From a virus: a DNA stretch of 29,004 nt. Location of the stretch: positions 1-29,004 of IMG/VR virus record IMGVR_UViG_3300036846_000067. One strand, given 5' to 3'. This document shows, piece by piece, positions 1-29,004 of the stretch. A program made the position numbers and the translations under genes. The notes under the pieces were generated by a model that was not told where the DNA came from, searched no databases, and saw nothing but the letters and a program-made list of their open reading frames with translations. Position 1 is the stretch's first letter. Each line of letters starts with the position of its first letter.

Positions 1-678
1 AATCTTGCCAGTGTCAAGCTTTGCGTTCAGGGAATCCTGGCTGATGCCGTACAGCTTCAGCGTGCGTGTCTGGCCGTTCATCACCCGTGCCACAAGCTCA
101 GCAGCTGAGGCCAGAGACGTGTGCTTCTGAGCGGCCAGATCGGCCACGACTTGCATGTTCTCGTAGCTGGCAGTCGTCTGATGAGTCTTGGTGATCAGTG
201 TGCCAAGGGCATCCTGAGTCTCAACAGCCGTGTGGCCATATGTCTCCTGGTGCTTGACAACTTCTTCAGTCTTGTCCTTGTACTTATCCCATGAACCACC
301 GGCGTTCGTAACCGCCAGCTCAAGCTGCTTCATGGAAATCTTGTCTTTGTCAGACATGGTGGTGATCAACGTGCCAGCAGCTGTGGCTCCAGCGCCAATG
401 CCCAGCATTGACTTGCCGACCTTGTCGTGCATGCCCTCGGTGACATCGCCGACTTCTTTGAACTTGTCCATGATCTCACCGACAGGCCCAAGTGCGGGAC
501 CAAACGCAGCAGTCAGAGCACCACCCATCGCCTTGAAGGCAGCCTTGGCTCTGCCGCTTGACTTCTCAGCACTGGTGCCAACACCCTGGACGTCAGACTC
601 GACACCAGCAATCGCCTTGGCTGTGTCGCCCTCGACAACACCCTTGACGTTGATGTAAGCTTCACCAATGACTGTCAT
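1..678 (-). CDS. Tape measure protein, N-terminal part (runs off the window)
   Basis: The visible 226 codons encode the N-terminus of a tail tape measure protein, which sets siphovirus tail length and is packed inside the tail tube. The reading frame is open from the ATG at 678 to the window edge with no stop. The protein begins MTVIGEAYINVKG, followed by a region rich in Ala, Gly, Lys and Ser with hydrophobic stretches and a helical, charged segment (DKDKISMKQLELAV). This is the usual start of actinophage tape measures. The ATG overlaps the stop of the preceding small gene as ATGA. Its place directly after two small tail-chaperone-like genes supports the call. The rest of the gene, normally the longest in the genome, lies outside the window. 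Confidence 0.88.
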   Translation of the reverse strand, partial: MTVIGEAYINVKGVVEGDTAKAIAGVESDVQGVGTSAEKSSGRAKAAFKAMGGALTAAFGPALGPVGEIMDKFKEVGDVTEGMHDKVGKSMLGIGAGATAAGTLITTMSDKDKISMKQLELAVTNAGGSWDKYKDKTEEVVKHQETYGHTAVETQDALGTLITKTHQTTASYENMQVVADLAAQKHTSLASAAELVARVMNGQTRTLKLYGISQDSLNAKLDTGKI

Positions 679-983
679 GACTGCTTCCCAGCTGGCGTAG
701 GCAGCTTGATGCCAAGCTTGGCAGCCATGGCAGGGTCAAGCCTGAACGGCTCTGGCTCCTGCTTGATGCCTTGCTGGGCATTAGCTCTCATCAGGTTATC
801 CGCCAGTCGTTTGTCGATGGCCTCGCGTGCCTCCACTCGTGCAACGCCTAGCTCACAGACATCATCAATGATCATGCTGTAGATGACGTCGCACAGTTCA
901 ACGCCGTCAAGATCCTCCCAGTCAACTCCAGTCCTGAGCAACCGACCGTTGAAATCAGCCCAGGTTTCCTTGGCCCAACTCAA
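675..983 (-). CDS. Tail assembly chaperone, second ORF (T-like)
   Basis: A 102-residue acidic protein lies between a first chaperone-like gene and the tape measure, the position of the lambda G-T type second product. In that family the second ORF is usually made as a C-terminal extension of the first through a programmed -1 frameshift. The first ATG-less candidate start is TTG at 983, with no Shine-Dalgarno sequence near it. The ORF is in the -1 frame of the upstream gene and stays open upstream only to a TGA at 1023-1025, so any slip would have to occur within 989-1022. I see no X-XXY-YYZ heptamer there. Expression by coupling from the upstream stop at 989 or by an atypical shift both remain possible. 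Function rests mainly on position. Confidence 0.62.
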   Translation of the reverse strand: MSWAKETWADFNGRLLRTGVDWEDLDGVELCDVIYSMIIDDVCELGVARVEAREAIDKRLADNLMRANAQQGIKQEPEPFRLDPAMAAKLGIKLPTPAGKQS

Positions 984-988
984 CAGAG

Positions 989-1339
989 CTAGGCCAGTTG
1001 CGTAGGGCGTCCTGTGTACTCCTCAGCCAACCACGCCAAGATTTCGCCAAGAGTCTCGATGGGGATGGCGACGTCATTGTCATCGATGAGTCTCATGAAC
1101 TGGTGTTTGTAGTCTGGCAAGATCGCAGCGCTAAGCAGCGTCACCATCTCACCTGCCTGTATGGAGATGCCAGACTCCATGGCACCAGCGATTCGCATCA
1201 TGAGATGGCCGGCAACTTGCCCACGAGCTTTGAACTTGTCTGTCTGCTGCTCCCACTCGTCATCGATGAGCCGCTCATACGTGAGCTCAAAGTCCAGTGG
1301 CTCCTTGGTGTTACGCGGTGCCGTGAACTGCTTGGGCAT
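989..1339 (-). CDS. Tail assembly chaperone, first ORF (G-like)
   Basis: This 116-residue, mildly acidic protein begins with a basic, polar segment (MPKQFTAPRNTKEPLDFEL) and continues as a helical domain. Length, composition and position two genes before the tape measure match the first tail assembly chaperone of actinophages, which binds the tape measure during tail tube assembly and is absent from the finished virion. The ATG at 1339 has an AGGAG ribosome site about nine bases upstream. The stop is TAG at 989-991, just before the TTG of the next ORF. I have no sequence motif that is diagnostic of the family, so synteny carries the call. Confidence 0.65.
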   Translation of the reverse strand: MPKQFTAPRNTKEPLDFELTYERLIDDEWEQQTDKFKARGQVAGHLMMRIAGAMESGISIQAGEMVTLLSAAILPDYKHQFMRLIDDNDVAIPIETLGEILAWLAEEYTGRPTQLA

Positions 1340-1343
1340 GAGC

Positions 1344-1793: not shown

Positions 1794-2293
1794 CAGCCCA
1801 CCCATCCAGTCGGATTGCTGACTAGCTCAACGCTGTACATCATCTCATTGGCTGCGAAGCCCCCGAGCGGCCCAACCGTCCGCAACTCACCAACAGAGAC
1901 TGGAACATTGGGTGGCACCAACAGATGCTTGTGCTCGATGTCTTCAAGCACGATCCGCAGAGCGATGGCATCATTGAACATCACCTGTGTTGCTGGCTCA
2001 TACTCCGCAACCTTGGGTGGAGAACCATCGTTGTGCATCGTTGGTATGCAGCGCACCATGGTGACGAACAGCTCACATGACTTGCGGAGTCTGCGGTGGG
2101 TGACGGCAGGCACCGGTGTGTCTGAGCCTTGCATGCCAGGAATGATGCGGGTGAGCCGAACGGTCAGCTGCTCGCAGTCAAACACAAGATCGCTGCCAGG
2201 TGCAACGTACTGTCGATCAGGCACGACAATCCCCTGCTGCACAAGGCCATCATTGACGAGACCCAGCAGCTTGGTCGCAAGATCGTACACCAT
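1793..2293 (-). CDS. Head-tail connector / tail terminator-like protein
   Basis: The product has 166 residues with alternating beta-prone segments. It sits between the PKD-like small protein and the gp10-like protein. In siphoviruses this slot encodes a neck or tail terminator protein that finishes the head or tail before joining. The ATG at 2293 overlaps the preceding stop as TGATG. An internal segment around residues 60-95 has several Arg and Cys residues (HRRLRKSCELFVTMVRC), but I know no motif that fixes the exact role. The assignment to a connector protein is by position and size; the precise subunit type is inference. Confidence 0.5.
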   Translation of the reverse strand: MVYDLATKLLGLVNDGLVQQGIVVPDRQYVAPGSDLVFDCEQLTVRLTRIIPGMQGSDTPVPAVTHRRLRKSCELFVTMVRCIPTMHNDGSPPKVAEYEPATQVMFNDAIALRIVLEDIEHKHLLVPPNVPVSVGELRTVGPLGGFAANEMMYSVELVSNPTGWVG

Positions 2294-3407: not shown

Positions 3408-4256
3408 TTACGGTGCCTGGCCTACCGTCCACGCGGTGCCGTTCCAGTACGCGTCACTGGCGTCACCCAGCGCCACGTACTGTCCCGTCGTCCACGCAGA
3501 TGTCGGACTCGCAGTGATACCAGACATGGCCGCCATGTTGGCCGGCGTTGTTGCACCGGCTGGCGTGAAGCTGCCAGGAGTGCCAGCGTTGGCACCAGTC
3601 GCAGCCACGCTACCTGGGACTTGCTGAATACCAAGTGCCGCAGCAGGAACTGTGTCAGTGAACACCGCTTGCACAACGGCATCACTGTCTTGCGTCCAGT
3701 CGCCCAGCGGGCCACCGTCCCACGATGGGTTCTCAATCGCATAGCCGTCGTACACGTTGGCCATCGCGTTGACATCGATGGTGCGGTTGCCCTTGCGAAG
3801 AAACATGCGAGGGAACGTCCACCACATGTACGGCTGGTCGGGTGGCTGGTACCCATCGATGACGTACCGTGTCCAGGCCTCGACACTGATGCCGTTTGGC
3901 GTTGGATCGATCATCAGCTTTGGGTACTTGAACCCGAGTACATCTGTCGTGTCAGTCGTGTCGTGAAACACTTCCCCGCCACTGAGCAAGACTTCCAGCT
4001 CAGGGTCAGGGATGCACAGCTCCAGTTCGATGGTCAGACGCTTCATGAGATCCGGTGTGCGGTAGACAACGCACAGGTTGCCTGACGCACCACGGTTGCT
4101 GATTTCTTGCCCAGCTTCCATGTCCGGGTTGAAGTCGATCTTGACCAACTGATCGGAAACGTACATGTCATTGCCCGGTGCAGGCGTGCCATCAGGGTCT
4201 AGTGCAGTCACTCTGATTGCCACGCACTGCAACGATGCTCCACCTTCATTCGCCAT
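3408..4256 (-). CDS. Virion protein with C-terminal display-type domain; candidate major tail protein
   Basis: The product has 282 residues. The N-terminal two thirds are beta-rich (YVSDQLVKIDFNPDMEAGQ and following, then ELELCIPDPELEVLLSGGEVF), compatible with a tail tube fold. A low-complexity Ala/Thr/Pro/Gly linker around residues 205-245 leads to a short C-terminal module containing AWTTGQYVALGDASDAYWNG, which is common at the C-terminus of actinophage tail tube and capsid-surface proteins and is thought to be exposed. A near-perfect AGGAGG site lies seven bases before the ATG, fitting a highly expressed structural gene. Its location right after the capsid genes, before the connectors, is unusual for a tail tube gene, so a capsid-associated role is a real alternative. 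Confidence 0.6.
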   Translation of the reverse strand: MANEGGASLQCVAIRVTALDPDGTPAPGNDMYVSDQLVKIDFNPDMEAGQEISNRGASGNLCVVYRTPDLMKRLTIELELCIPDPELEVLLSGGEVFHDTTDTTDVLGFKYPKLMIDPTPNGISVEAWTRYVIDGYQPPDQPYMWWTFPRMFLRKGNRTIDVNAMANVYDGYAIENPSWDGGPLGDWTQDSDAVVQAVFTDTVPAAALGIQQVPGSVAATGANAGTPGSFTPAGATTPANMAAMSGITASPTSAWTTGQYVALGDASDAYWNGTAWTVGQAP

Positions 4257-4268: not shown

Positions 4269-5186
4269 TCAGAGTGTCATGGTCAGATCGACGTGGCAGA
4301 ATGTTACACCATCCCACGATGCGCAAGCGTACCGTGATGCCTTCACCTCAACGGTGTCGGTCGCACGATCAAGCGACTGGAATGGATCATCTGGGAACGT
4401 GATGATGTCGCTGAGCCTCACGTCAGTGATGCTCGTGCCGACAACGACAAACGGCCCAGCTGGCTGCGGTGGTGGTGTCCCCACAGCCGTCGGATACTTG
4501 CCATAGCCAGCACCTGGGACAACGATCGTGTCCCTGTTCGTCAGCAGCAGGTTGCCCTCACGGCGTGTGAATAACTGCAGATACGGTGAGAGTACAGGCG
4601 GCAGGTGAATCATGCCACGACCACCGTAGTTCATCTGGCTGATGTACTGCTCACAGATGCCGACAGCCTCCTGGATAGAAGTTGCCGTGTACTTGTCAGC
4701 AACAGCAGCCACCGTGGCGAGATACAAGTTGCCCCATCCAGCAGCCGTTGACAGCAAGCCGTTCCAGAACTCGTACTCAACCATCTTTGGCGTAGCTGCA
4801 TCGAGCAACGCCTTGGCTCTGGCTGCGTAGTCGTTCTCATTCCAGCCAAAGGCAGAACACCTGAAGCTGGCCGTGAGCAAATACGGATGCCACGACACCG
4901 TGCCATAGTCTTGATCGACAGGCACGTTGATCATGTCAGGCCCGCAGTCATCAGCAACCTCAAGATCGCCAATGGCATTGGGCAGATACTCAAACCCGTT
5001 TGTCCATCGAGTGTTGGTTGGATCCACTGGATTGCGGGACGACCGCACGAGGTTCACCGGCTGCTGGACAAGTGGAGGTGGCTCCACTGGTACGCCCAGT
5101 CCTTGCGTCGTTACTGCAGCTGGCGTGACGTCACCAGGCGGACCACTTGCTGCGATCCCAAATCGCAGGTCAGTGATACTGCTCAT
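4269..5186 (-). CDS. Structural protein next to major capsid gene (possible minor capsid protein)
   Basis: The product has about 305 residues. After a Pro/Val-rich N-terminus it shows a segment with EVADDCGPDMINVPVDQDYG and then ARAKALLDAATPKMVEYEFWNGLL. A phrase of this kind, in which a helix of 'ar..LLda.tp..vE.efWnG' crosses the middle, resembles the spine region of HK97-fold capsid proteins and encapsulins, but I cannot prove that. A Cys-containing C-terminal strand (ACASWDGVTFCHVDL) closes the protein. I use the ATG at 5186, which has GAGG six bases upstream; a GTG at 5198 overlapping the previous stop as GTGA would add four residues. It may be a second capsid subunit or a decoration protein. 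Confidence 0.5.
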   Translation of the reverse strand: MSSITDLRFGIAASGPPGDVTPAAVTTQGLGVPVEPPPLVQQPVNLVRSSRNPVDPTNTRWTNGFEYLPNAIGDLEVADDCGPDMINVPVDQDYGTVSWHPYLLTASFRCSAFGWNENDYAARAKALLDAATPKMVEYEFWNGLLSTAAGWGNLYLATVAAVADKYTATSIQEAVGICEQYISQMNYGGRGMIHLPPVLSPYLQLFTRREGNLLLTNRDTIVVPGAGYGKYPTAVGTPPPQPAGPFVVVGTSITDVRLSDIITFPDDPFQSLDRATDTVEVKASRYACASWDGVTFCHVDLTMTL

Positions 5187-5194: not shown

Positions 5195-6835
5195 TCACTC
5201 AGCTGGAACGACAGTGGCCGGGTCCAACGTGCCGACAGAAGCACCAGTGGGCTTGGTGGTGACGGTGATCTTCAGGGACTCGATGCCACGCTTTGCCAAG
5301 CCCTCGAAGTCCTCACGCCAGATCTGGTAGTCGTTGGTGCTGTTCAGCGTGGAGTCACGCACCACGCCGACATCAATGCGACCACCGTCGAGGTACTGCC
5401 ATGTGCCCTCAGCGAACAGGTACACGACGAATGAACCTGGGAACTTGTTGAGCGCACCGGCTGCTTGCGCAGCGCCCATGCTGCCGGCCAGATCTTCGAG
5501 CGCCCACGTTGGGTTGACGTTGCGGGCTGCGATCAGAGCGGCAAGCTGAGCATCCGTGGTAGCCAAGTTGTTCTGACCGTCACGGTCGTGTGCGATCTCA
5601 CGTGTCAGGTCGGCACGGAGCATGTCCGTGACCCAGTCCGGTGCGATCATACGCAATGTTGCATCGCCCAGCCTGTACCTGTACTCGTACGCGCTGATTG
5701 CCTCGTCGAGCATGGTGAGGAAGTCACGTGTGGCGCTGACTGGCCCAGCGTAGGTGACAGCTGTCGAGCCTTGGTCGATGATGTTGAGCAAGGTGAGCTC
5801 TGCCATCCGCGCCGTCGCGACGTCGAGCAGCGCCGTCTGAGCAGCAACGTGCTCAGGGCTGAACCTGCCCATCATGTTGCCGACCTGGATGCAGACTGGA
5901 ATGCCGTACACATAGGCGGTTTCACTCGGCGAGCAAGCGACCGTCATGCAGGCCTTGGTGGCCGTGCCGCCAGTGTCGTCTGCGATCGTCCACGGCGTCG
6001 GTGGCGTGATGTCGCTCAACACCGGTGGGGTGAAGAACGTCACGCCAGCGCGACTGGCACCGAACGACGGCAGCGCTGCCTGAACTGGCCGTGCTGTCGA
6101 GCCGATGGTGTCGATGCTGTAGTCCACGGCCACTGGCTCGCAGATGCCGCCATAGGCGACAAGCGATTGCGGGTTGACCACAGCGTCGATCTTGGCGCTG
6201 TTGACGTACGGGTCGCTGCCCAGCTGCCGTGACTCCGGGTAGTCCTTGATCATGCTCGCAACGAGCACGTCATCAGGCGTGCCGCCACGGCCCAACGCCT
6301 CAAGCTTGCGCATGAGAGCGCGAGCCAGCTGGTTGTGGTCGGTGATTTCCTGCCCGACACCGAAGCCAGGCACATCACCAGCAGCCACCAGCCGTGTAGA
6401 CACGCGCTGGAGCACAGCCTTCTTGCGCTTGTTTGGAACCACCGTGGCACGAGCAAGCTGGCCGAGCGATGGGCGCTTGACAGATGCGGCGACAGCAGGC
6501 ACGAGTTCTGCCTCCTGCTCTTGCTCATCTGCCTCGTCCTGCTCGACGACATCGTCGTCACCGCTGTCGTCTTCACCAGCGTCGTCGTCAGGCTCGCTGC
6601 CTTCCGGCGGATGGACATTCGCACGGATCTCAGCTAGCGACGTCTCAGACGACACTGCTTGCTCCCGCACCTGAGAGATCACAGCACTGATCTCACTGAG
6701 ATCAGCCAGCGATCCGTTCTGATCGTCGATGGCATCGAACTCAGCCACCAACTCAGACTCCAGCTCGGCAAGCTGCTCTGGCGACAGATTCGCCAGATTC
6801 CCCAGCCTGTCCTCAAACTTTTCACGCCAGGACAT
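5195..6835 (-). CDS. Major capsid protein with fused N-terminal scaffold region
   Basis: The 546-residue protein has an N-terminal helical part of about 70 residues (SPEQLAELESELVAEFDAID), then a very acidic, disordered stretch at roughly 78-115 (runs of D and E), then a basic patch (PNKRKKAV). The remainder looks like an HK97-fold shell protein, with a spine-type helix (AAQTALLDVATARMAELTLL) and a C-terminal strand block (GVVRDSTLNSTNDYQIWREDFEGLAKRG). The N-terminal section is the position of the delta or scaffolding domain that the upstream protease would remove during head maturation. GAGGA lies about four bases before the ATG. Length and domain order match self-scaffolding actinophage capsid proteins. 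Confidence 0.85.
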   Translation of the reverse strand: MSWREKFEDRLGNLANLSPEQLAELESELVAEFDAIDDQNGSLADLSEISAVISQVREQAVSSETSLAEIRANVHPPEGSEPDDDAGEDDSGDDDVVEQDEADEQEQEAELVPAVAASVKRPSLGQLARATVVPNKRKKAVLQRVSTRLVAAGDVPGFGVGQEITDHNQLARALMRKLEALGRGGTPDDVLVASMIKDYPESRQLGSDPYVNSAKIDAVVNPQSLVAYGGICEPVAVDYSIDTIGSTARPVQAALPSFGASRAGVTFFTPPVLSDITPPTPWTIADDTGGTATKACMTVACSPSETAYVYGIPVCIQVGNMMGRFSPEHVAAQTALLDVATARMAELTLLNIIDQGSTAVTYAGPVSATRDFLTMLDEAISAYEYRYRLGDATLRMIAPDWVTDMLRADLTREIAHDRDGQNNLATTDAQLAALIAARNVNPTWALEDLAGSMGAAQAAGALNKFPGSFVVYLFAEGTWQYLDGGRIDVGVVRDSTLNSTNDYQIWREDFEGLAKRGIESLKITVTTKPTGASVGTLDPATVVPAE

Positions 6836-9145: not shown

Positions 9146-12100
9146 TCACTCTTGATCCCCTGATGCTGTTTGGTTCTCAACCTCTGGCGTGGGCACGATG
9201 CTGTCTTCATCGACATCATAACCTGCAACGATGTACTTGAAGTAGCCAAACGTGCCAACCCAGTAGCCGTCAAGCTTGCCGCTCACAGTCTCCAGCGGCA
9301 CGTCAATCGGCGTGACCTCAGTGTTGTCTGGATCATCGTGGTAGCCGATGACGTTGGCCGTGACCCATGTGCCAAGTGGGAACTTGGGATCTTGAGGCGG
9401 AACTGCCGCTGCTGCCACTGGGAATCCGTGCCCTCCTGCACCAAGCCATTCCTTGGCTGATGCCATCGTCTCATGGTAGTCAGCGTTGCCTCGCCAGTTG
9501 TTGCAGTCATAGCACGCTGGCGCAAGGTTCGGCATGACGTACTTGCCACCTTCCTTGCCAGGCACCAGGCGCTCAAGTGTGGAAGTTGCTGGCTCCAACG
9601 TGCGACCGCAGTAGATACATGGCGCATGCTTCCCATCACCATACTCAGCAACAAGCTGATTCTGTAGACGCACACGCGTTTTTGAACCAGGACGATCATC
9701 GCCGCCAGCACGAGACGATGCGTCATGCCGCGCTTGAGCTGCTGCCTTGTCTTCCTCAGTGATCGTGGCGCCATATGACTCATACTTTTGGTCAGCGGTG
9801 TCTTGCGCACTGCTGATGGTTTCATCGCTCTGTTGCGTCTGAGCCAACGCAACAGCGTCATCCAGCTTGCCCTCATCGTACAGCTTACTGGCTGTCTGAA
9901 CAGCCATACCAGCGTTGTCCTTGGCATCATAGACGGCCGTGCGACGATCACCTACGGTCTCGCTGGCTGGTTTGCTCGCAGACTTGTCCTCACCACCATC
10001 GCCACCAAACTTGCCACCCTCTTGGCGTGGCTGACCTTCAGCATAGGCAACCAACGCTGACGCGACTTCAGCGCCACCACTCCAGTTTGCCGTGAAGTCG
10101 CATGAGCAGCCATCGTGATCGCCCGGCGCAAAGAACTCACGATCAGGGAACTCATCTTCATTGGCCAGCACATCGTCTGTCCAGCTGTTGAACTCAACGC
10201 CATCCAGTGCCTCGTGTGGCGGGAATGGATTGGGCGTGAAGCCGTGCACCCATGTGTAACTGTTGATACCAAGACCGTTGTCCTGCAAGGCACTGCTGAC
10301 TGCGGGGCCAGTCGTGACGCCAGCGGGTGGGATCTGGACGGCAACCGTTGGGTTGAACGATCCAGCATCGCTTGAGTGCAACAATGCCCCGCCAGCACGG
10401 GCGATTGCTTGCTTGACGATGCTTGGCGACACCAGCCGCGTGGTCGTGATCTCAGCATCTTCACCAACGTCGAGCACGTTGCTCGCGTCGCTGAGGTAGC
10501 TCATGGCCGTGCGCTGCAACTGATGTTGAAGAAACTCCCAGCCGTTGTCGTTGTAGCGTGAGAGCTGGCCGGCCAACTCGCTGAACTGCTCAGGCTGCAT
10601 GTTGAGCATGGAGCTGATCGACTCGATGGTGGACTTGTCAGCGTACTCAAGATATGCATCGTACTCAGCGCGCAATTGCTCCCACGCGTTGTTGAGCAGC
10701 ATCTGCTCGTCCAGACCAGCAGCTGCGATCATGGCATTGCTGATGAGGAAGCCAAGCTTGAAGTTGCTATGGCTTGCGCACCAGGCACGTCCTGCTGCCG
10801 TACGGCCAACTGTCGTGCGAATGCGCGCGCCTGCCTTCTCAAGAGCACGCGTCATGCTCGCGTTGGTCGCTGTCAGCAACTTGTCATACAATTCTTTCTC
10901 GATGCGTGCCAGGCTGCGATTGCCTTTGCGCAGAGCGGCCTGGCTTGGTGCTTTTGGGTCTGCTGCCACGAGTGCGAGTCCGGCAGCCAACCCAGGCGGC
11001 TGGTTAGTTGGTGCCTGCTGCCTGGGCTGACTGCCCTGTGGCGGACCCTCAACCGGCTGAGTGGCTGAGGGGCCAGCCAGGCCACCACCAGGCAAGGAGC
11101 CCTCATCGCCAGGTGGCGCCTGTCCTTGTGGTTCTGGCTTGACTTGGCTGATGTCAATCGTGTTGTCCATGCGCTTGATGATCTGCGCCACGATCGTGGG
11201 ATCAAGTCTGCTCTGCTTCAGCACAACGCGCGCAAGAATCTCTGTCTCACTCGGCGCATCTGTGTCGCTGAAGCCCATCGTGTCGCGCAAGGCAGCGTCA
11301 CTCAACGCGAAACGATCATACGCCTGCAAGGCGTCTTGGCTGCGATCAGGGTGCCGCACCAGACGTGTCGGATCATGCCAGACGATGACCTTGCTGACCC
11401 AGTCAGGATCAAGACCTGGTGTGTTCTGAAGCGCCAGTCGCAGGTAGCCTGCCGTCAGCGCGTCATCCATCACCATGACGAGTGGCTCAACGTGATCGCT
11501 GAACGTGTCGTCATCGATGGACCAGGCTGTCCAGTGGTTCAGATCACCCTTGCCAGTAAGGACTTCAGCCGGCAGGTCAAGCGTTGTCGCCATGCGGCCG
11601 ATCAACTCTTGGCGATCTTGCGAGCGCTGCGCCTCTGGCCTTGAGATCATGACCTGACGCACAGCTTGAAGCGCATCTGCGGGGCCACGGACCACGATGG
11701 GGAAGATCGCGCTAGCTGAGCCTTCATCCTGGATCGCAGCCATACCAGCTTGGATGAGCTCAGCCATGAACTCATCTGTCTCTTGATCGTTGGCATCTTC
11801 CTGAACGTTAGCCTTGACGACTGTCAGCTTGTCCGGCAGCATGAGTAGGCCTGAGTTGGCCAGGCGTGATCGTCCGCTCGCGCGTATGTCGCGCGACAAT
11901 ATGAGGAGTTCCTCACAGATGTCAAGCATCGCCGCGAACGGTGAGTCGGCCAAAGCCTTGCGACGTGGGTGCGGGTACCAGAGACGTTGCAAGAACACGC
12001 CATCTGGGATGGCCTGTGGCTGACTGCCCTCGATCCGCAACTGCAGCGTGCCATCTGACGTGGCCGTCACCTCAGAGACTGAGCGAATCTCCCAGACCTC

Positions 12101-15117: not shown

Positions 15118-15133
15118 GCTTGGCTGCTCGCTG

Positions 15134-16616: not shown

Positions 16617-16646
16617 ATTTTAGACACAAGACGTTAGACGACACAA
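16617..16646 (-). promoter_or_regulatory. Possible weak promoter before the resolvase gene
   Basis: The minus strand has TTGTGT (16646-16641) and TAAAAT (16622-16617) spaced 18 bases apart. The -10-like box is good, the -35 box matches only three of six positions and lies within the repeat array. It would start transcription near 16610, just before the AGGAG that serves the GTG at 16594. This is a suggestion only. Confidence 0.25.
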
Positions 16647-16912
16647 GACGTTGACCAAGACGTTTGTCGATCATCGCCATAGCCCTGTTAGACGGGCTAG
16701 ACGTTTTAGACGTTTCATTGGCAAAGTTTGTAATGGTAACAATTTTCAAGATCGTTTAGGGAGTGAGAGCTACAGGAGAGATAGGCTCGGAAACGTCTAG
16801 TCCGTCTAGAACGGCTGTGACAGTCCGATGACACCCGTTTGCCCCGATTCACAAGACGTTACCTCGTTTTTCTGCGTCTAGGTCAACCCGCTTGATCAAG
16901 CGCGCTAGCCAG
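16628..16912. repeat. Repeat-rich noncoding region with AGACG(TTT) iterons; origin or multi-site operator candidate
   Basis: This 285-base gap has no plausible gene and is AT-richer (43-45% GC in 16681-16800) than its surroundings. It holds about eleven copies of a core AGACG, mostly as TAGACGTTT or CAAGACGTT. Forward copies begin near 16629, 16636, 16646, 16658, 16690, 16699, 16708 and 16854. Reverse copies (CGTCTA) lie near 16794, 16803 and 16875. Two 18-base blocks, TAGACGG[G/A]CTAGACGTTT, at 16689-16706 (plus) and 16791-16808 (minus) form an inverted pair around an 84-base centre that includes an AT-rich stretch (16716-16760). This layout resembles phage or plasmid origins with iterons and an unwinding region, and also operator arrays. 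The neighbours, a primase-helicase and a resolvase, favour an origin, which is inference. Confidence 0.65.
16889..16902. repeat. 14-bp perfect palindrome just after the primase-helicase gene
   Basis: CGCTTGATCAAGCG reads the same on both strands and starts 11 bases past the stop of the primase-helicase gene on the minus strand. No T-tract follows on either strand, so it is a poor intrinsic terminator. It could be a binding site for a dimeric protein or a transcript-end hairpin. It contains a central GATC. Confidence 0.45.
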
Positions 16913-19831
16913 TCAAAGTTCGTGTCTGTCGTCCCCAACGAAACGATATGGCACACGCCAGGCTCTGGTCTGAGGTGCCTTGTTGGGCCACAAGACTGAT
17001 TTCGATGGTTGACGATCCATGTTCGTGAAGCCAGGCCTGCCCTCTAGCAGCTTGCCTAACACCCGCGAGCCATTGGTGCCAGCTGCGATCAACTTGCCAA
17101 GCAGCGACTGGGTGTTGGTGTCCCATGGCTGATACGATCGTGCGAAGCTGCTACCATCCAAGCCACCAGATGAGTCAATACCTGTGACCCTGAAGCTGCC
17201 CTCACCACGCGATTCAGCCATGGCTTCATTCTGAAGGTGAATTTTGATCTCTTCACACAACCCAGTCGTGCCAACAACCGTGCCATCAGCGGCCCTGACC
17301 CGCACCCAGCGTGAATCGCTTGTGAAGTATTGATCGATTTCATCCTCAACAGCGACGTGCGTGGCGCTCTTGATCGATGGCGCAATGTTGGGCAAGTAGT
17401 CGCCACCACGAGCCAGGCATCTGAGCCAGCCATCAAGCGCCCATTGCAGCCAGAAGTCAGCCATCGCTTGTGAGGCCGCGGACTCACCATGTCGGCCACG
17501 CACAAGTCTCAGACCACGCTGCATTGCCTTGCTCACAGCGTGATTCATGGGCTTGGCGTCGCCAGCTTCAAGGTCGATGACGATGCCCTTGGCAGTCTCT
17601 TCAGACATGTCTTGGCCAGGTGGCTCCTTGCTAGCCATAATGCGTTGGGCACGCTCAATCTCCTCAGGTGGCCTGAAGCGTATCGCCCAGGGGATGACAA
17701 CCAGCCTCGCAGCGATGGCGTCGTTGAAGCCGCCAGCCTCCATGAAGTTGTGGTTGCTGGTCAGCAGAGTTGTTGCGACGTTCTCAACCAGGCTGTAGTT
17801 CATGTATGCCTTGCGGGCCGTGAAGGATTGCTCGCCGGTGAGCATCTTTGCTGCTTCAGGGTCGATGCCCTGCTCGCCAACCTCCTTGATCACCAGCATC
17901 CTGCGACCAGACAAGCCAGCCAGTGCATAGATCTTGTTGTTGCCAGACGCCTTGCGGGCCAGAGCATCAGCCTGGATTTCCCATGAGAGTGGGCCAAGGG
18001 CATGCTGCAGACCTTCCAGCAGAGTTGATTTGCCAGAGCGCGTTACGCCTTGCATCACGAACAACTTTGGCGACATCTGACCCCACAGACACCAGCCCGC
18101 AATCTCTTGCAGTGTGAGGGTTATCTCTGGGTCACGATGCCAGTCAGAGAGCAATCGCTGGCAACTTTCACGCGTGGCGATCACATTAGGGTCATCACCT
18201 GTCACCAATCTGCCTCGCGTTGTCTGCGACATAAACAAGTTGCGTCCACTCAAACCAGTGACAACCTTGATCTTGTGCCCAACGTTGTTGCCCGCATCAA
18301 CAAAGGGATCTTCAAGATCGACAACCCCATCAGGCGTTGCGAGCAGGTAGTAATGGCTATCCCAAGTCTCACCAAACTCAGGCAATGGCCTGAACATTGA
18401 GCTGCGCTGTGCCATGCTGACAATGTTGTTGATCTGCCCTGTTGACTGTGATCGTTTGGCCCACTTCTTCAGCATGGCGCCAACACCCTTGTTGCCAAGG
18501 GCAAATTGCTGGTCGGCCTCCTCACTGACCCTGCCTGCGATCATGGTGGCATGATCGTGTATGCGTGTCTTGGCTTCCTCCCAGTGATAGCCTGACCACC
18601 ACATCCAGCCGTGAACTTCATGGAACATGAGGAATGGGAAGTAGTTTTGAAGTCGATACATGTTGGCAAGATCAGACGTCAGCACATCTGGATCACGCGA
18701 GTCCATGAGTGCTCGTTTGAAGTGGCCCAGGATATGGCCTAGCGTTATCTCATCACCAGGCTTTGGCATGTGCTCATCGACAGATCGCTTGTACGCTTCA
18801 GCACCACTGGCCTCAGCCAGCTGTGCGTACGTCCAGCCACTACGCGATGCTTTGTACGCCATGTGAAATGCACCCTGGTGTCGCGAGCCTTGAGACATAG
18901 CATAGCTCACACCCCACTCAACCAGTTCTTCAAGTGAAGCTGTCCTGAAGTTGACACCAGCACTAGCAACAGGCGGCAGCATGGTGTCTGAGAGCACAAG
19001 ATCGACATCAAGCAGCCCATCAGGGAAGTTGCCAGCGATCACCTTGAACAGCCAAGATGGTCCGAGTGAGTGAGGATCAGCGCCAGACCTGCGACGTTCC
19101 TCACGCGACCACACGATGAAGTCTGATAGGTCCCAGCCATCCATCATTCCAGTTGCTTCAAACCCGGGACTGGCACGCAGGTCAATGGCAATGATCTCAA
19201 GATCGCTCAACTCATCGTGCTCAGCGATGAATGGCTTCAGCGTGTTGTACCAGATCTTGCTGCCTCGACGCCCAGCCTCATCGCAGTCGAACACGATGGC
19301 CAGATTCTCAAAGCTTGACAGCAAGGCTATCGCTGGTGCCTCACCACCCATCTCAGCCAAGATGTGCTCAAGCCTGACTGCCGCTGTCTCACCATCTGTC
19401 CAGCACGTCGCGGCGAACCCCGCACAGCGCAGCATGATCGTGTCCCACTCGCCGGCGCACAGGAACAACGTTCTGTTCCACTTGATCGGCAGTGGATCGC
19501 TTATCTGCCTTATGATCCATGGCAAGTCCCAAAGTCTGCCGTATGTCTGACCACTGATGTGGCCACGTCCACCAGACAGCCACTTTGTTTCCTTGTCGCC
19601 ACGCCATGCCTTGGCGAATCTGATCTGGCCATGGACATCACAACATGGCAAGCACCATCGGCCGCTCTCTTGATCCCAACCAAGTCCAAGTGATGATGCC
19701 ATGATCATCTTGTCTGGATCAATGAACTTACGTCGGTCAGCCAGTCGCTTTGCCAGATGTCGTGTCAGTGCTGCTTGGCGAGTCGCCCACCACTCATCAT
19801 TGACCTGTTCATGTCTCCAATCACGAGCCAT
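16913..19831 (-). CDS. Primase-helicase (TOPRIM plus SF3/D5-type ATPase)
   Basis: This 972-residue protein would unwind DNA and make primers at the fork. Residues about 40-240 form a primase region with Cys residues (WCLPCCDVHGQI) and a TOPRIM-like fold: LFLCAGEWDTI (Glu128), then AIVFDCDEAGRRG (Asp182/184), then DGWDLSDFI. A middle domain lies before a D5/SF3 ATPase with Walker A GVTRSGKST (595-603), a Walker B-like RRMLVIKEVGEQ (643-654, with Lys-Glu), sensor TTLLTSNHN (687-695) and an Arg finger region (AIAARLVVIPW, about 705-715). The C-terminal 200 residues likely form a DNA-binding or regulatory tail. The ATG overlaps the upstream stop as TAATG. It lies directly next to the repeat array, fitting an origin-binding initiator. 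Confidence 0.88.
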   Translation of the reverse strand: MARDWRHEQVNDEWWATRQAALTRHLAKRLADRRKFIDPDKMIMASSLGLGWDQESGRWCLPCCDVHGQIRFAKAWRGDKETKWLSGGRGHISGQTYGRLWDLPWIIRQISDPLPIKWNRTLFLCAGEWDTIMLRCAGFAATCWTDGETAAVRLEHILAEMGGEAPAIALLSSFENLAIVFDCDEAGRRGSKIWYNTLKPFIAEHDELSDLEIIAIDLRASPGFEATGMMDGWDLSDFIVWSREERRRSGADPHSLGPSWLFKVIAGNFPDGLLDVDLVLSDTMLPPVASAGVNFRTASLEELVEWGVSYAMSQGSRHQGAFHMAYKASRSGWTYAQLAEASGAEAYKRSVDEHMPKPGDEITLGHILGHFKRALMDSRDPDVLTSDLANMYRLQNYFPFLMFHEVHGWMWWSGYHWEEAKTRIHDHATMIAGRVSEEADQQFALGNKGVGAMLKKWAKRSQSTGQINNIVSMAQRSSMFRPLPEFGETWDSHYYLLATPDGVVDLEDPFVDAGNNVGHKIKVVTGLSGRNLFMSQTTRGRLVTGDDPNVIATRESCQRLLSDWHRDPEITLTLQEIAGWCLWGQMSPKLFVMQGVTRSGKSTLLEGLQHALGPLSWEIQADALARKASGNNKIYALAGLSGRRMLVIKEVGEQGIDPEAAKMLTGEQSFTARKAYMNYSLVENVATTLLTSNHNFMEAGGFNDAIAARLVVIPWAIRFRPPEEIERAQRIMASKEPPGQDMSEETAKGIVIDLEAGDAKPMNHAVSKAMQRGLRLVRGRHGESAASQAMADFWLQWALDGWLRCLARGGDYLPNIAPSIKSATHVAVEDEIDQYFTSDSRWVRVRAADGTVVGTTGLCEEIKIHLQNEAMAESRGEGSFRVTGIDSSGGLDGSSFARSYQPWDTNTQSLLGKLIAAGTNGSRVLGKLLEGRPGFTNMDRQPSKSVLWPNKAPQTRAWRVPYRFVGDDRHEL

Positions 19832-20067
19832 TAGCAGTTGTCGCCACCTGACATGTACGCAACTTTAGCAAGATCAAGCGCGTGCAACACAGGCAGTGTA
19901 GGATGGTGCTTTGTTATCACGTGTGACTCGATGCCATGCCAACCGCCATGATCCCAGACTTTCATGGTGAGACAGTCTGCATCGAAATCAGCCACAAGAT
20001 CACGACAAATGTCCCCAACAGGATCAAAACGATCTTGTTGCGATCTTGCCCAGTCAAGCAAGTTCAT
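19831..20067 (-). CDS. Small YozE/SAM-like protein
   Basis: The product has 78 residues. It starts MNLLDWARSQQDRFDPVGDICRDLVAD, which resembles the YozE SAM-like pattern ('F..WL..q...ddpvGdlA.Di..D'), then has a strand or helix part with ITKHHPTLPVLHALDLAKVAY. The family is a small helical bundle of unknown function, common in Gram-positive phages. The ATG at 20067 overlaps the preceding stop as ATGA and its own stop overlaps the primase start, so it is translated in one chain with its neighbours. Confidence 0.55.
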   Translation of the reverse strand: MNLLDWARSQQDRFDPVGDICRDLVADFDADCLTMKVWDHGGWHGIESHVITKHHPTLPVLHALDLAKVAYMSGGDNC

Positions 20068-22003: not shown

Positions 22004-22158
22004 TGGTGTTTCATCTCCTCAGCCTCATCGCGCTCAGCCTCACATGAGTACAAACATGGGATGCAGAGTTGTGGACTGGTGAAGACATGCCCATGATCGG
22101 CAGCCTCATTCTTGCATGGCCGGCCATGATGGAACAGCTCCCAGTCGCACTCACACAT
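22000..22158 (-). CDS. Small Cys-rich, probably zinc-binding protein
   Basis: The product has 52 residues from the ATG at 22158, seven bases past the end of dnaE; the longer frame reaches into dnaE and is dropped. It carries Cys/His in the order C-x-C, then HH, C, H-x-H, then C-x2-C and a final C (MCECDWELFHHGRPC, then LCIPCLYSC), then an acidic tail. This spacing could bind one or two zinc ions. Small proteins of this kind are common in actinophages, but their role is unknown. The stop overlaps the next GTG as GTGA. Confidence 0.55.
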   Translation of the reverse strand: MCECDWELFHHGRPCKNEAADHGHVFTSPQLCIPCLYSCEAERDEAEEMKHQ

Positions 22159-22165
22159 CACCACT

Positions 22166-25100
22166 CTAGTCTGGGTCAATGATCCACATCCTCTCAACTT
22201 CGATCTTGCGTCCAAATGATCTGTTCTTGTAGCCAGTGACAAGGATCAAGTCATGGTCCAGCCTCACTCTCATCAAAAGATCTTTCATCTGTGGGAACTT
22301 CCACCTGTTGACGCGCACGTTGATCTCATCAGTGTCATCGTACGCATACAGCACCATCGAGTGCTTCAGGCCGGGCTCCTTGATCCTGCTTGGGTCAAGA
22401 TCGTGACCTTCACGTGACCTGAACTCCTCAAACATGTCTCGCAAGTTTCGATCATGAACCCGGCCAACCCACACGACTGGCAGCATCTGGCCACGATCCC
22501 ACTGCCGGCCATCAAACTGGACACCAAGATCGTATGGCAAATCTTCGCTGCGATGCGTCGTTGTAGGCAGCATCTGACCGTGAACATCTTGAAGATCGCC
22601 ATTGCGGAGCATGACTCGAAGATCGTCAAGCTGCTCATGAAACGTCTGGACACCAAAAGGATCATGAGCGCCAACCCACGTCTTGATCAGCGCTGCTTTC
22701 TTAGGGCCAATCCCGCGCACGTTGAGCAGATCTGGCCAGCCCCACTTCTCATTGCGATCTTTGGCCACCTCACGATCAGCAACGATCTCCATCGCCAGCT
22801 TGAGGCCAATGCCAGGAATCTGTGAAAACCCCGGCAGAATAAGGCCATCGGTGCCCTTGCCCCACGTCAACCCAGACTTCATGATCGACAAGCCACTCAC
22901 GTGGACCGGCTCACCATCACCACGCTTGTCGGCAAACTTGGGATCACCAAGATCCCGCATCAACGCTGGCCAGCTGCTTGGCGCTGACTTCTGAAGTTGC
23001 GCCGCATAGAACTCAGTTGGATGATAGACCTTCATCCACATCGCCCAGTAGCCGAGCACTGTGTACGCCACGCTATGGCTCAGGTTGAAGGCATACTGTC
23101 CTGCCGTGATCATCCTGCGGAAGATCAAGAGAGCCATCTCAGGGTCTACGCCATTGGCGATCGCACCCTCAACGAACATGTCGCGCTTCTGGTTGAACGC
23201 TGCTTCACCATACTTGGCTGAGATCACCTTGCGAATCTGGCTGAGGTGCGTCCATCCAAAGTTGCCGATCTCACGACAGATCGCCAGCATCTGCTCTTGG
23301 TACAGCAGTTGGTACTTGGTGTAGCCACAAATTCTGGCGACATCCTCGTTGTATGTCCACAGATTTTTGGCGTCATCACGATTCCACTTGCCCCACTTCT
23401 GGTTGATGTAGTCCAGCGTGCCGCCTGAGTGGTATGGTCCTGGACGACTCAAGGCGTTGATGTCCACCAACTCTTGGAATGTATCCGGCTTCAGCTGGGC
23501 AACGATGGACTTGGTCGTTCTGCCTTCATACTGGAAGATGCCGCGCACGTCACATCGTCTGAAGGCATCGATGACTCGCTCATCATCCAGCGGCAACTTG
23601 TACATGTCTTCAACGCTCATGTCGAGCATCTTCATGCAAGATGACAGCATGCCGAGTGTCGTCAGGCCAAGGAAGTCGATCTTGAGCACGCCAAGATACT
23701 CAGCGTCATACTTATCCACACTCAGCACGCTCAGCTTGCGAGGTGGAGCACCAGGGATCTTGGACTTCAGCTCACGCGTGTACAGCGCGCAGGTGCTGGT
23801 GAGTGGCTCGTTGCCGATCACGAGGCCTGCCGCATGAACGCCCATCGACTTGAGCATGCCTTCCAGCTCAAACGCGCTGTGAAGCTTTGGGTGCCTGTCC
23901 CAAATCTCTTGTGCCAAAGGGAACTGGGCGATGGTGTCCTGCAATGTCAACTCGAACCGTGAGTCTGCAGATGATCGATCAATGATGAACTCTTTGAGTC
24001 TCGTCACCTCAGTGACAGGCACACCAGTCACACGAGCAACATCGTCAACGCTGTTGCGTCCACGATATCTGGTGAACGTGCCGATGTTGCCGACACAGCC
24101 GGCGCCATACTTCTTGAGCAGATACTGCCTCACACGATCACGCTTGGTGTCATCGAAGTCAAGATCAACATCTGGCAAGTCAAGTCTGTTGGGATCGATG
24201 AAGCGCTCAAAGTACATCTGCGGGTACAGCATCGGGTCAACTTCAGTGATGCGGAGCAGGTAGCAGACCAGCGAGGCAGCTGCAGATCCACGCGCTGGAC
24301 CAACCAGGATGTTGTGATTCTTGGTCCATCGCACGACATCGCTGAGGATCAAGAAGTAATCAATGAAGTCCTTGTCGATCATAACGTTGACTTCACGCTG
24401 CAGTCTAGCTGTGTAGTCCTGCCTGTCAGTGCCTGGCGCTAGATGCTTCTGCATCTCACGATAGCGCCAGCCCTTGCGCAGCCACTCCCACAACAGATCG
24501 TTGGCGCTCGCACATCCCTCTGGCAAAGGGAATCTGACACGCTCGATCTTGGGCAACGTGACGTCGCACCGTGACGCAATCTCGACAGTGCGATCAAGCG
24601 CAGCGATGACGTCTGCTTTGTCTGGTACTCCCGCATAGCTGAGTCGCTTGCCAACATCTTGGCGTGAGAACAGAGTCAGTGGAACCTTGTAGTCCCAGCT
24701 GTCCTCTTGCTGATCGACTGTCTTCTTGGATGACCGGCCACCACGTGCGATGGCATGGATCAACGAGTGAAGCTTGATCTGTTCCGGCAATGGATAGTGG
24801 GCGTCAAGCGTTGCCACAGTTGGGATCTTGAGCCGCTTGGACACCTCAAGTAGCAGGGTGTTGAGTGCGACCACGTTCGCCAACTCTGGGAATGCTTGAA
24901 GCTCAAGGTAATAACGATCACCAAACATCTCACGATATCTGGCAGCGACGCGCAGAGCAGCCTCGATGCCACCTGCCTGGATGTCCTTGCCACCAAGGGA
25001 TTGGCAAGCGATGTCTGAGCCGGTGCAGCCACTGAGGAAGATCATGTTGGAGCCATGCTTGGTGAGCATGTCGCTGGTCGTCGTTGGGAAGTAGTAGAAG

Positions 25101-25644: not shown

Positions 25645-26161
25645 TGCCACCACCCTCTGGTACTCGTTGAATGAACTTGAGGTCATAGCCAAACTCGTCA
25701 AACGTGTCGTATGTTGCCTCCCTGAAGTGATGGTGTCCAGCCAGCGCTGGGTTGGTGTGGTTGCTGGTCTCGAACACGAACACCGGGTTCATGCCCTGAT
25801 CAGCTTGCATGCGGGCGATCTGAGCATCAAGATCGTCAACGTGCATGCTGCAGTGACTGACGAACGTCTTGGCTCCACGTTCGGGCAGTCTGCCTGTGAA
25901 GCTGAAGTTTTTGGTCACCTCAGCTCCATCGTTGCACATCATCTCGAACTCAAAGCCGCCAAACAGCTGGTAGTTGAACGCCAACAGCGTCTTGGCCTTG
26001 AGTGGCTGGCCTCTGAACATGCCGGTGAACGTTGGGTTGTCATAGGACCACTTGTCGTAGCCCATCTTGCAGTAGTGTGTGATTGTCTCCCTGAATAGCT
26101 CGCGGTCTGTGTAGCAGATGCTCAGCTGATGGATCGCCAACAGCTTGGGCCCACCACCCAT
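25637..26161 (-). CDS. VOC-superfamily (glyoxalase-like) protein
   Basis: The product has 174 residues. It shows the two-module pattern of the vicinal oxygen chelate fold: a first strand with His11 (LLAIHQLSICY), an acidic strand end (FGGFEFEMM, Glu73), a second module start with His107 (CSMHVDDLDAQI) and a final strand DEFGYDLKFIQRVP. These positions fit metal ligands of glyoxalase or dioxygenase-like enzymes, or antibiotic-binding relatives. The ATG at 26161 has GGAGG six bases upstream and overlaps the dehydrogenase stop. Substrate is unknown. It follows the SDR gene and forms part of the enzyme cassette. Confidence 0.58.
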   Translation of the reverse strand: MGGGPKLLAIHQLSICYTDRELFRETITHYCKMGYDKWSYDNPTFTGMFRGQPLKAKTLLAFNYQLFGGFEFEMMCNDGAEVTKNFSFTGRLPERGAKTFVSHCSMHVDDLDAQIARMQADQGMNPVFVFETSNHTNPALAGHHHFREATYDTFDEFGYDLKFIQRVPEGGGNG

Positions 26162-26856: not shown

Positions 26857-26857
26857 G

Positions 26858-27523
26858 CTACCTCATTTCAATCAGTAGGTCAAGTGCTTCTTTGAGACTG
26901 CTTGCTCTTACACCATCCCATGGTGCCGGTTCGTTGTGCGATCTTGTCATCAAGACCGACTCAATGCCAGCCCTGTTGGCTTGATCGCACATCTCAGGCA
27001 GGTCATCTAGTACTGCTACAACGCTTTCACGACCGACTGCCTTCACAAGATCGTGATACTTGTAGTCACTGGCGATCAGCCCATCTGCCTTGATGTGGTT
27101 GCGCTTCAGCCAGTGAGTCGTGTCCGTGGCCATGTTGTCGAGTCGTAGGTATGGCCTGGTGGTGCAGATCCATACCGCCAGTCCTGCCTTGCGGAGTCCG
27201 TTGATCAGATCTTGGGCGCCCTCAAAGCAAGGCATCGACCTGATCATGCCTCCTTGCCTGTAGGCCAACTTGATCTGGCGATACGTGCCTTTGCTGATCC
27301 CCATCGCCCTGTGAAACTGGAACTTTGGTGCTCCTGTCGGCCAGCCATCCTCTGGCCTGTAGATGATTTCACGCCCCAGCCATAGCTGGGCAAAGTCAAC
27401 TGTGTGTTGGTAGTGATCGCCAAGCGTGCCATCAACATCTATGGCAGCGACTGGCTTCGACCGTACTCCAAGGTATCCAGTGCCTCTTGAAACGCGTGAT
27501 GAGTGAGCACTCCCTTGCGCCAT
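26858..27523 (-). CDS. HAD-superfamily phosphatase (5'-nucleotidase-like)
   Basis: HAD motifs are clear. Motif I is AAIDVDGTLGD (catalytic Asp29/Asp31 from the chosen start), motif II lies in VWICTTRP (Thr), and motif III/IV is in VVAVLDDLPEMC (Asp pair). The layout resembles 5'(3')-deoxyribonucleotidases and polynucleotide-kinase-type phosphatases. The product is about 221 residues from the ATG at 27523. This start overlaps the previous gene by about 85 bases, unusual in this genome; no start codon lies between it and the motif. The frame is open to 27649. The overlap, a rare start such as ATA at 27442 or a read-through arrangement should be considered. Confidence 0.72.
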   Translation of the reverse strand: MAQGSAHSSRVSRGTGYLGVRSKPVAAIDVDGTLGDHYQHTVDFAQLWLGREIIYRPEDGWPTGAPKFQFHRAMGISKGTYRQIKLAYRQGGMIRSMPCFEGAQDLINGLRKAGLAVWICTTRPYLRLDNMATDTTHWLKRNHIKADGLIASDYKYHDLVKAVGRESVVAVLDDLPEMCDQANRAGIESVLMTRSHNEPAPWDGVRASSLKEALDLLIEMR

Positions 27524-28278
27524 AGCCCATATCTTCCTGCTCGCACGACGGATGGCCAGCATGTACAGTTGGTCGTCAGTGGCTTGCGAATGGTAAACAC
27601 CATCCCTGGCTTGTTGTGCCGTTGCGGGATGGTGTCCTGGGAAGCCCACTCAGTGTTGACTGAGTCAAAGATGTTGCTGCTGCGATACCAGCCGGTGCGT
27701 TCCAATGATCGTTTGATTGGCATCATGCCATTACAGATCACCAGATGTTGAACACCACGCCACAGTCTGCGTTCCTCGAACTGCATGGGTCCAGACCAGC
27801 ATCCATCGATCCAGACGTTGACGTGCTTGAACCTGTGGTGTTGACGATCTTCACAAATCAGCGGTGCGGGGATTGTTGAGAACACGACATCGAACGTATC
27901 ATGAAGCCTCGACAACAGCTCAGGACTGACCATCGTGTCGATCACGTTGCGCCCGAACTGGTGCCAGAGATGATCGTATGCGTGCCTGAGATCCCAGCAA
28001 TCGTGGACGCCCTCATACTCTGATGGTGACACGACGATGTCTGGATTCCTTGCTGCATAGACCTTTTCACGATAGCCATCCACCGTGCCAATCAACGCAT
28101 AGCGCAGCTTTGACGATCTTGAATCTGGGATGCCTGGTATGGCGACGTGCTGGTACTGCGCTCCCCGCATCGGGCTGCGTTGCTTCTTGCTGAAGATCAC
28201 AACGCTGTGGCCTGAAAGACGTGAAGCATGGGCCATCAGTAAGCCTGCTGGCCCACACCCCAAGACTGCAACCTTCAC
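27439..28278 (-). CDS. FAD/NAD(P)-binding oxidoreductase
   Basis: The product has about 279 residues. It starts with a Rossmann beta-alpha-beta unit (VAVLGCGPAGLLMAHASRLSG, residues about 3-23) with GxGxxG spacing, a strand ending in VVIFSKKQ, and a middle region with FDVVFSTIPAP. The C-terminal part has RAGRYGLWRKGVLTHHAF, a pattern I associate with phage flavin-type oxidoreductases. I start at the GTG at 28278, which has AGGAG five bases upstream; the TTG at 28281 would add one residue. Substrate unknown. Its 3' end overlaps the HAD start. It is the first gene of the enzyme cassette. Confidence 0.7.
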   Translation of the reverse strand: MKVAVLGCGPAGLLMAHASRLSGHSVVIFSKKQRSPMRGAQYQHVAIPGIPDSRSSKLRYALIGTVDGYREKVYAARNPDIVVSPSEYEGVHDCWDLRHAYDHLWHQFGRNVIDTMVSPELLSRLHDTFDVVFSTIPAPLICEDRQHHRFKHVNVWIDGCWSGPMQFEERRLWRGVQHLVICNGMMPIKRSLERTGWYRSSNIFDSVNTEWASQDTIPQRHNKPGMVFTIRKPLTTNCTCWPSVVRAGRYGLWRKGVLTHHAFQEALDTLEYGRSQSLP

Positions 28279-28297
28279 CAAGACTCCTTGGTTGAAG

Positions 28298-28993
28298 TTA
28301 CTGGACGTGACCGTGCGTGTCGTATGTCCTCAACGTGTGGAGCCGATCATGGTGTGCTCGCAGCGAGCCAAACAGATGTTGATCACGCGACGTGAGCGGC
28401 TCATCTGATTTCATGAGCCGATGGAACGTGTTGGCGTGCCGCATGAAGACATTGTCACTCATCTTCGATACTTCTGGAAACATTGGCTTGCCGTCAAGGA
28501 TGTAGTCAAACCTCCCATCTGGAGCTGGCTGTGGACCATAGATGAAGTTGCCCTCAGTCTGGACTGGCCACCACTCGCACAGTCCAGCTGAGATATTGGT
28601 GAAAAGCCTGCCATACCACTCACGATCATGTCTGAGCAGCGATGCCTTCTGGCCGGCGTGAAATCGCTTGACTCCCCACCACCATGGTGGATCGATCTTG
28701 CGTGCGATGATCGCCTGCTCATGGTAGCCCATCTTGATCATGCGATCATGCACCTTGAACGTGTCCGTCCAGCCTTGGACTTTCCATTCAAATAGCATCC
28801 TGGCGATGTACTGGGCAAGGAAGTCATCGTGCCCGATCCACATCTTGATGCCAGGGTGCCACTGCCAGCCCTTCTTGATCTTTTTGTTGGTTTCCAAGAT
28901 CGTCATGGCAGCGTTGATCTGATGGCCAAGATCTTTCTCACTCAATGCCGCAGCGTTGATCTTCTGATCACTGTACGGCAGATATGTTTGCAT
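28298..28993 (-). CDS. Pyrimidine dimer DNA glycosylase family (endonuclease V-like), divergent
   Basis: The product has 231 residues and starts MQTYLPYSD, close to the MQTFLPY start of this family. It keeps a WHPGIKMWIGHDDFLAQY segment, then FEWKVQGWTDT (usual EW..RGY.DT), then FHAGQKASLLRHDREWYGRLF (usual FH..HRSNLLRK.P.hY). Family members remove UV-damaged bases. It departs from the family at the LGKQR-x-E part (here LGHQINAA), so the usual catalytic Glu may be missing or moved. The C-terminal 80 residues have no family match. The ATG at 28993 lies 11 bases from the window edge, so upstream context is unknown. It may be an active variant or a non-catalytic relative. Confidence 0.72.
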   Translation of the reverse strand: MQTYLPYSDQKINAAALSEKDLGHQINAAMTILETNKKIKKGWQWHPGIKMWIGHDDFLAQYIARMLFEWKVQGWTDTFKVHDRMIKMGYHEQAIIARKIDPPWWWGVKRFHAGQKASLLRHDREWYGRLFTNISAGLCEWWPVQTEGNFIYGPQPAPDGRFDYILDGKPMFPEVSKMSDNVFMRHANTFHRLMKSDEPLTSRDQHLFGSLRAHHDRLHTLRTYDTHGHVQ

Positions 28994-29004
28994 CTGTAGT
29001 GGTG

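Follow-up and report, generated by a model that had tools for sequence, protein, structure and literature searches.

A sharply bounded octamer scattered over the genome of a probable actinobacteriophage and arrayed in some of its relatives: a candidate DNA recognition site

Is the heptamer CAAGATC/GATCTTG, which recurs along the 29,004-base IMG/VR virus record IMGVR_UViG_3300036846_000067 (the whole stretch analyzed, hereafter the window), a site read in the DNA or a by-product of how the genes are written? Genome-wide short words, such as HIP1, Chi, and the uptake sequences, are known in bacteria, and the role of some of them (HIP1) is still debated. An earlier note on this DNA had estimated about 60 copies of the heptamer against about 3 expected from base composition. 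The exact count is 62 (32 CAAGATC and 30 GATCTTG) against a computed 2.9, making this the top 7-mer of the window by excess over base composition (21-fold). We find that 31 of the 62 copies extend, on both strands, to the octamer CAAGATCG/CGATCTTG, and that this octamer is the true, tighter word. The explanation that we favor, giving it about an even chance of being correct, is that the octamer is an asymmetric recognition site of 8 to 9 bp for a putative DNA-binding protein and is kept by selection.

The octamer occurs in the window at 1069/Mb, about 1 per kb. Holding protein, codons, and junction dinucleotides constant, we find 30 copies where 7.6 are expected, which places the octamer first among about 13,000 observed 8-mers. 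Pooled over six genomes, 109 copies stand against an expected 24.5. In the same pool, 23 of its 24 one-letter variants lie at 0 to 1.7 times the expectation, with the exception of GAAGATCG (2.7). Such a sharp edge among one-mismatch neighbors argues for a recognized word; a compositional habit should fade gradually. Examining the flanks of the coding copies in six genomes, we find a strong preference for C, and a weak one for G, before AAGATCG; G is lacking after it, and farther out nothing is strongly conserved. The sharper form is C (more than G), AAGATCG, and then any base except G, and strong conservation does not extend past about 9 bp.

The copies show no preferred orientation. Although the minus strand carries every accepted gene of the window, 16 octamers lie on the plus strand and 15 on the minus strand (Table 1). 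The earlier note had listed a primase site and a packaging signal among its options; a primase site or a directional packaging signal is disfavored, since an orientation preference would be expected and none is seen. The copies within genes occur on either strand and occupy several reading frames, and the heptamer exceeds the expectation even in its rarer frames (CAA-GAT-C, 7 vs 1.3; CA-AGA-TC, 3 vs 0.3). By our own gene list, 56 heptamers lie in about 27 kb of genes and 6 in about 0.84 kb of intergenic DNA. The two noncoding copies reported earlier, at 15999 and 16747, are confirmed, and further ones lie at 19869, 19995, 20031, and 20042; these last four all fall in the gap at 19832-20063, which lies upstream of the primase gene. 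The gap that holds the 16747 site contains AAGATCGTTTAGG with a matching flank in the relative G003 and CAAGATCG in the relative G001. Regular spacing was considered and rejected, as the variation of the gaps is near random (coefficient of variation 0.75 to 1.23).

How large the heptamer excess appears depends on the null model. Dinucleotide shuffles give 5.5 copies (s.d. 2.2, maximum 11), and Markov models of orders 0, 1, 2, and 3 give 2.9, 5.3, 17.6, and 27.9. Against 57 copies observed in genes, a synonymous shuffle within genes gives 12.6 (maximum 24 in 500 shuffles), and a synonymous shuffle that also keeps the codon-junction bases gives 22.5 (maximum 33 in 200 shuffles). Base composition is therefore the wrong null, and the excess claimed from it, real as it is, shrinks to about 2.5-fold. 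The density gradient described earlier also changes its meaning. The counts on the two sides of 15 kb (17 left and 45 right, estimated before as 18 and 44) do differ, but the gradient mostly follows coding content, with the octamer at 3.5, 3.9, and 3.9 times the expectation in successive thirds of the window.

These shuffles bear directly on whether the phage genes simply favor certain codon pairs or codon contexts, with no role at the DNA level, an idea that the earlier note had raised and that we regard as improbable. A codon-pair-preserving shuffle (n = 100), the very test that the note had proposed for its own refutation, yields 46.5 heptamers (maximum 55) of the 57 in genes. Lys-Ile is written AAG-ATC in 24 of 27 cases, and GAT-CTT is the commonest choice for Asp-Leu (29 of 66). 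The in-gene heptamer is thus largely restated by codon pairs. The octamer is not, as the same shuffle gives 16.9 (maximum 27) against 29 observed. This null is moreover unfair to a DNA word that itself fills a codon pair. The two favored pairs, AAG-ATC and GAT-CTT, are reverse complements of one DNA word, and neither the strand symmetry nor the copies in other frames, in intergenic DNA, in relatives, and in the arrays described below are expected from codon pairs. A site at the DNA level fits better, in line with the recombination, packaging, and replication signals suggested earlier, and we assign no particular function among them.

A methylation target had also been suggested. We consider it very unlikely indeed that the word marks a site of methylation or some other modification, or that its excess simply follows from GATC enrichment. 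The core does contain GATC, and the over-representation of HIP1 in cyanobacteria is tied to methyltransferases (PMC4390886). The local GATC counts given before are exact (18 in 22201-22800 and 4 in 4321-4920). Over the coding DNA as a whole, however, GATC is only mildly enriched (309 vs 261 expected), the heptamer supplies most of the difference, and GATC outside the heptamer is near expectation. We rejected GATC as the unit. TTGATCG, which has the same core, is not enriched in G001, G003, G410, and G009 (0.6 to 1.2), although it reaches 3.6 in the window. Among 57 proteins of G001 and G003, Pfam detected no DNA methyltransferase family; a single Methyltransf_11 match was present.

We compared the window with related phage genomes, which were found by protein similarity except for L196 and L209 (parts of G410 and G412), first obtained in a pattern search for clustered copies. 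Expectations for the relatives rest on simple longest-open-reading-frame gene calls, and their P values are Poisson approximations. With arrays removed, the octamer is over-represented 4.3-fold in the window and 3.2- to 5.5-fold in five relatives: G009 (5.5), G003 (4.3), G008 (3.8), G001 (3.4), and G410 (3.2). Under the null that keeps protein, codons, and junctions, G009 has 15 copies against 2.9 (rank 1 among 8-mers), G003 36 against 9.1 (rank 2), and G008 7 against 1.4, while G001 has 16 against 4.6 and G410 13 against 4.5 (both with arrays removed). Two relatives are low, G412 at 1.3 and G002 at 0.5. The scattered density in most family members is about 0.3 to 1 copy per kb. Among more distant phages, DSL-LC01 shows a ratio of 1.9 and Yara has 4 copies against 6.0. 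A scan with the window primase found no relative, and one with an oxidoreductase-like protein of the window found four distant loci, where the octamer is outside the top five 8-mers.

The relatives have some sites in common through descent and do not count as fully independent. Among 43 window sites and 22 G003 sites in aligned genes, 9 coincide, and where residues are identical, third-base identity is only 0.49. By our judgment, 9 shared sites may be somewhat above neutral retention. Most positions thus turn over, while the density is kept.

In three relatives the octamer is also densely clustered. G001 packs 12 copies into about 850 bp, G410 has 7 within about 560 bp, and G412 carries 11 over about 410 bp. 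These arrays occupy the same syntenic place: the tail genes lie on one side, and on the other is a gene, homologous in all three, that opens the next gene block and encodes a small Cys/His-containing protein whose basic helix is rich in Ala, Lys, and Arg. The DNA between the copies varies from phage to phage. The copies are mixed in orientation and irregularly spaced, several neighbors being 15-20 bp apart. In G001, two near-identical 48-base elements (L147 13717-13764 and 13888-13935) have inverted CAAGATCGAA-type copies at their ends, and none of 200 shuffles folds as well into a hairpin. The corresponding locus of G003 holds a weak cluster at most (three AAGATCG), and that of G002 holds none.

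From these observations, we propose that the octamer may be read by a protein that binds specific DNA sequences and is encoded by either the phage or its host. The intergenic array would serve this protein as a cluster resembling an operator or an origin, and the scattered copies would be secondary binding sites in genome organization, replication, or recombination. The family consists of probable actinobacteriophages, with the array in some members and the scattered copies in most. One reader common to arrays and scattered copies would complete this scheme. A more ambitious version, which we think unlikely, is that the family marks its own DNA genome-wide and that a phage protein nucleates on the array, a viral marking of the HIP or parS kind without orientation or palindrome.

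Several points weigh against the proposed recognition site. The codon-pair shuffle absorbs most in-gene heptamers, as described above. The window stops short of the array locus. The clusters of G410 and G412 are there by selection, as the search was for a cluster pattern, while their shared location and kinship are not. G412 has an array with its scattered copies at the expectation (8 vs 6.3), whereas G003 has scattered copies with at most the weak cluster at the array locus; given this contrast, the two forms may belong to separate systems. The Pfam tallies, which list the commonest families and do not cover every gene, contained no family of repressors, ParB proteins, or integrases; there was one weak MarR match.

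Candidate readers were sought among the phage proteins. A small protein family that G001, G003, and G410 share and that G412 and G002 lack was rejected as a candidate, having no known domain and a poor model (mean predicted local distance difference test score, pLDDT, 44). The protein encoded downstream of the arrays is modeled better (mean pLDDT 80) and has insignificant fold matches only, including a DNA-binding Ada domain (E 7.5 to 9.8); it may serve as a lead only.

The word could instead belong to the host genome, being of the HIP1, DNA uptake sequence, or Chi kind, with the phages adapted to that host. We consider this unlikely. Its density, 31 copies in 29 kb, is within the range of HIP sequences, 500-2500 copies/Mb (PMC4390886), and E. 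coli phages without recombinases over-represent Chi about 3-fold (PMC3784561). The maintenance of density despite turnover of positions would agree with such a word, and a family member without excess, G002, is as expected from a phage of another host. G001, however, encodes a Sak4-like annealing protein and an exonuclease. Intergenic arrays are, to our knowledge, not a feature of Chi or HIP.

The closest named relatives by protein are phages of Streptomyces, Microbacterium, Arthrobacter, Gordonia, and Mycobacterium, all at <60% identity, and because these infect actinobacteria, the host of the window virus is likely an actinobacterium as well. Surveying 396 Actinomycetota genomes, we found the octamer at no more than about 185/Mb. 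In sampled sequence of four of the densest, the counts were 29 against 19.9, 17 against 12.1, 4 against 4.1, and 6 against 3.4, that is, 1.0 to 1.8 times the coding null. An apparent outlier, G019 (175/Mb; 29 vs 19.9), was rejected as a carrier of a host word, being largely explained by its coding content. Neither the survey with its two order-level follow-ups nor a search of genome contigs for a triple-copy pattern, which gave scattered matches, revealed an enriched clade. A widespread host word is thereby excluded; any host word would have to be peculiar to the actual host. The same near-background counts argue against decoys that titrate a host DNA-binding protein, be it a repressor or a defense factor. 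The dense arrays and the scattered copies in both orientations might resemble a sponge, but we know of no such host protein or site, and we hold this explanation very unlikely.

As far as tested, the octamer system answers the full definition of none of the known systems with which we compared it. Like the highly iterated palindromes of cyanobacteria (HIP1, GCGATCGC), it is a short, dispersed word with a GATC core at about 1 per kb. It differs from its own reverse complement, however, and its one-mismatch neighbors are mostly at background; it occurs in phages, is less dense in the sampled actinobacterial genomes, and forms arrays in relatives, with no DNA methyltransferase found in the 57 proteins from two relatives. 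The stoperators of Cluster A mycobacteriophages are likewise asymmetric sites dispersed over an actinobacteriophage genome, with sites at a control region. Stoperators measure 13-14 bp, number 20-30 per genome, follow the direction of transcription, in many cases sit in short intergenic spaces, and are bound by a lysogeny repressor. The octamer, in contrast, has 8 bp, lies mostly inside genes, and takes both orientations over genes on one strand; the incomplete family tallies listed neither repressor nor integrase. Chi, which an enzyme of the RecBCD/AddAB type recognizes, is another asymmetric octamer whose excess in phage DNA is about 3-fold or more. In E. coli phages, it reaches 0.2/kb (PMC3784561), about five times less than our octamer, which also forms clustered arrays, is near the coding expectation in the sampled Actinomycetota, and occurs in a phage (G001) with recombination proteins of its own. 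The octamer arrays of the three relatives resemble the iteron arrays of replication origins, to which a replication initiator binds, in that a word recurs repeatedly within a short intergenic stretch whose place is conserved. They differ in being mixed in orientation, irregularly spaced, and accompanied by scattered copies genome-wide, and a separate origin-like region with other words adjoins the primase gene.

That region, 16628-16912 in the window, runs from the primase gene to the next gene and contains repeats of the AACGTCT(A/T) type; the same gap holds CGGTATCTA repeats in G001 and ACGTATCTT repeats in G003. Elsewhere in the window, an open reading frame of 1163 residues (9146-12637) has an HNH endonuclease domain spanning residues 1007-1050, and the dinucleotides are skewed (CA/TG at 1.53 and TA at 0.33 times the expectation). 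Another asymmetric word, CCCCGCA (TCCCCGCA; TCCCGCA in the window), is 3- to 13-fold over the coding null in the window, G001, G003, G410, G412, G008, and G009 and weak in G002 (8 vs 3.0). Its other strand is G-rich (TGCGGGG), so that a Chi-like reading is conceivable. Coupling between this word and the octamer was rejected, as the two show no preferred distance. Words with CCTGCA or CTGCAG are avoided in six pooled family genomes (CACCTGCA, 0 vs 13.9), as if under restriction. Two constant offsets (21,835 and 32,831) bring the AAGATCG positions of G410 into register with those of G411, as if both records came from one circularly permuted genome of about 54.7 kb. Between small genes, L388 contains two hammerhead ribozymes of type II that reach the gathering score, at 10438-10504 and 11347-11415; further similar elements were seen by eye around 10695 and 10965.

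Table 1. Octamer sites and genes of the window, and octamer arrays of relatives (positions are those of the window unless a relative is named)
Feature	Position	Strand	Remark
CAAGATCG	1118..1125	+	exact match
CAAGATCG	2185..2192	+	exact match
CAAGATCG	2278..2285	+	exact match
CAAGATCG	4136..4143	-	exact match
CAAGATCG	4961..4968	+	exact match
CAAGATCG	6187..6194	-	exact match
CAAGATCG	11613..11620	-	exact match
CAAGATCG	12343..12350	-	exact match
CAAGATCG	13707..13714	+	exact match
CAAGATCG	14283..14290	+	exact match
CAAGATCG	15531..15538	-	exact match
CAAGATCG	16269..16276	-	exact match
CAAGATCG	16471..16478	+	exact match
CAAGATCG	16582..16589	-	exact match
CAAGATCG	16747..16754	+	intergenic origin-like repeat region downstream of primase gene
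CAAGATCG	18313..18320	+	exact match
CAAGATCG	18997..19004	+	exact match
CAAGATCG	19198..19205	+	exact match
Mini-cluster of four CAAGATC (19869+, 19995+, 20031-, 20042-)	19869..20048		intergenic, upstream of primase gene; last two 11 bp apart
CAAGATCG	20030..20037	-	intergenic
CAAGATCG	20041..20048	-	intergenic
CAAGATCG	22201..22208	-	exact match
CAAGATCG	22396..22403	+	exact match
CAAGATCG	22525..22532	+	exact match
CAAGATCG	23677..23684	-	exact match
CAAGATCG	24544..24551	-	exact match
CAAGATCG	25828..25835	+	exact match
CAAGATCG	26939..26946	-	exact match
CAAGATCG	27046..27053	+	exact match
CAAGATCG	28114..28121	-	exact match
CAAGATCG	28693..28700	-	exact match
CAAGATCG	28895..28902	+	exact match
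Array	G001 13096-13930		tail genes / Cys/His-protein gene gap
Array	G410 21897-22459		tail genes / Cys/His-protein gene gap
Array	G412 31931-32336		tail genes / Cys/His-protein gene gap
Major capsid protein	5195-6835	-	window gene
Large terminase	13429-15381	-	window gene
D5-type primase/helicase	16913-19831	-	window gene
ThyX	20437-21444	-	window gene
DnaE-type DNA polymerase	22166-25420	-	window gene

A small phage genome with a dense word, whose positions shift and which is gained and lost among relatives, would make the function of such a word directly testable. Should a phage protein prove to be the reader, the virus would be marking or organizing its DNA in a new way; with a host protein as the reader, the word would predict the host.

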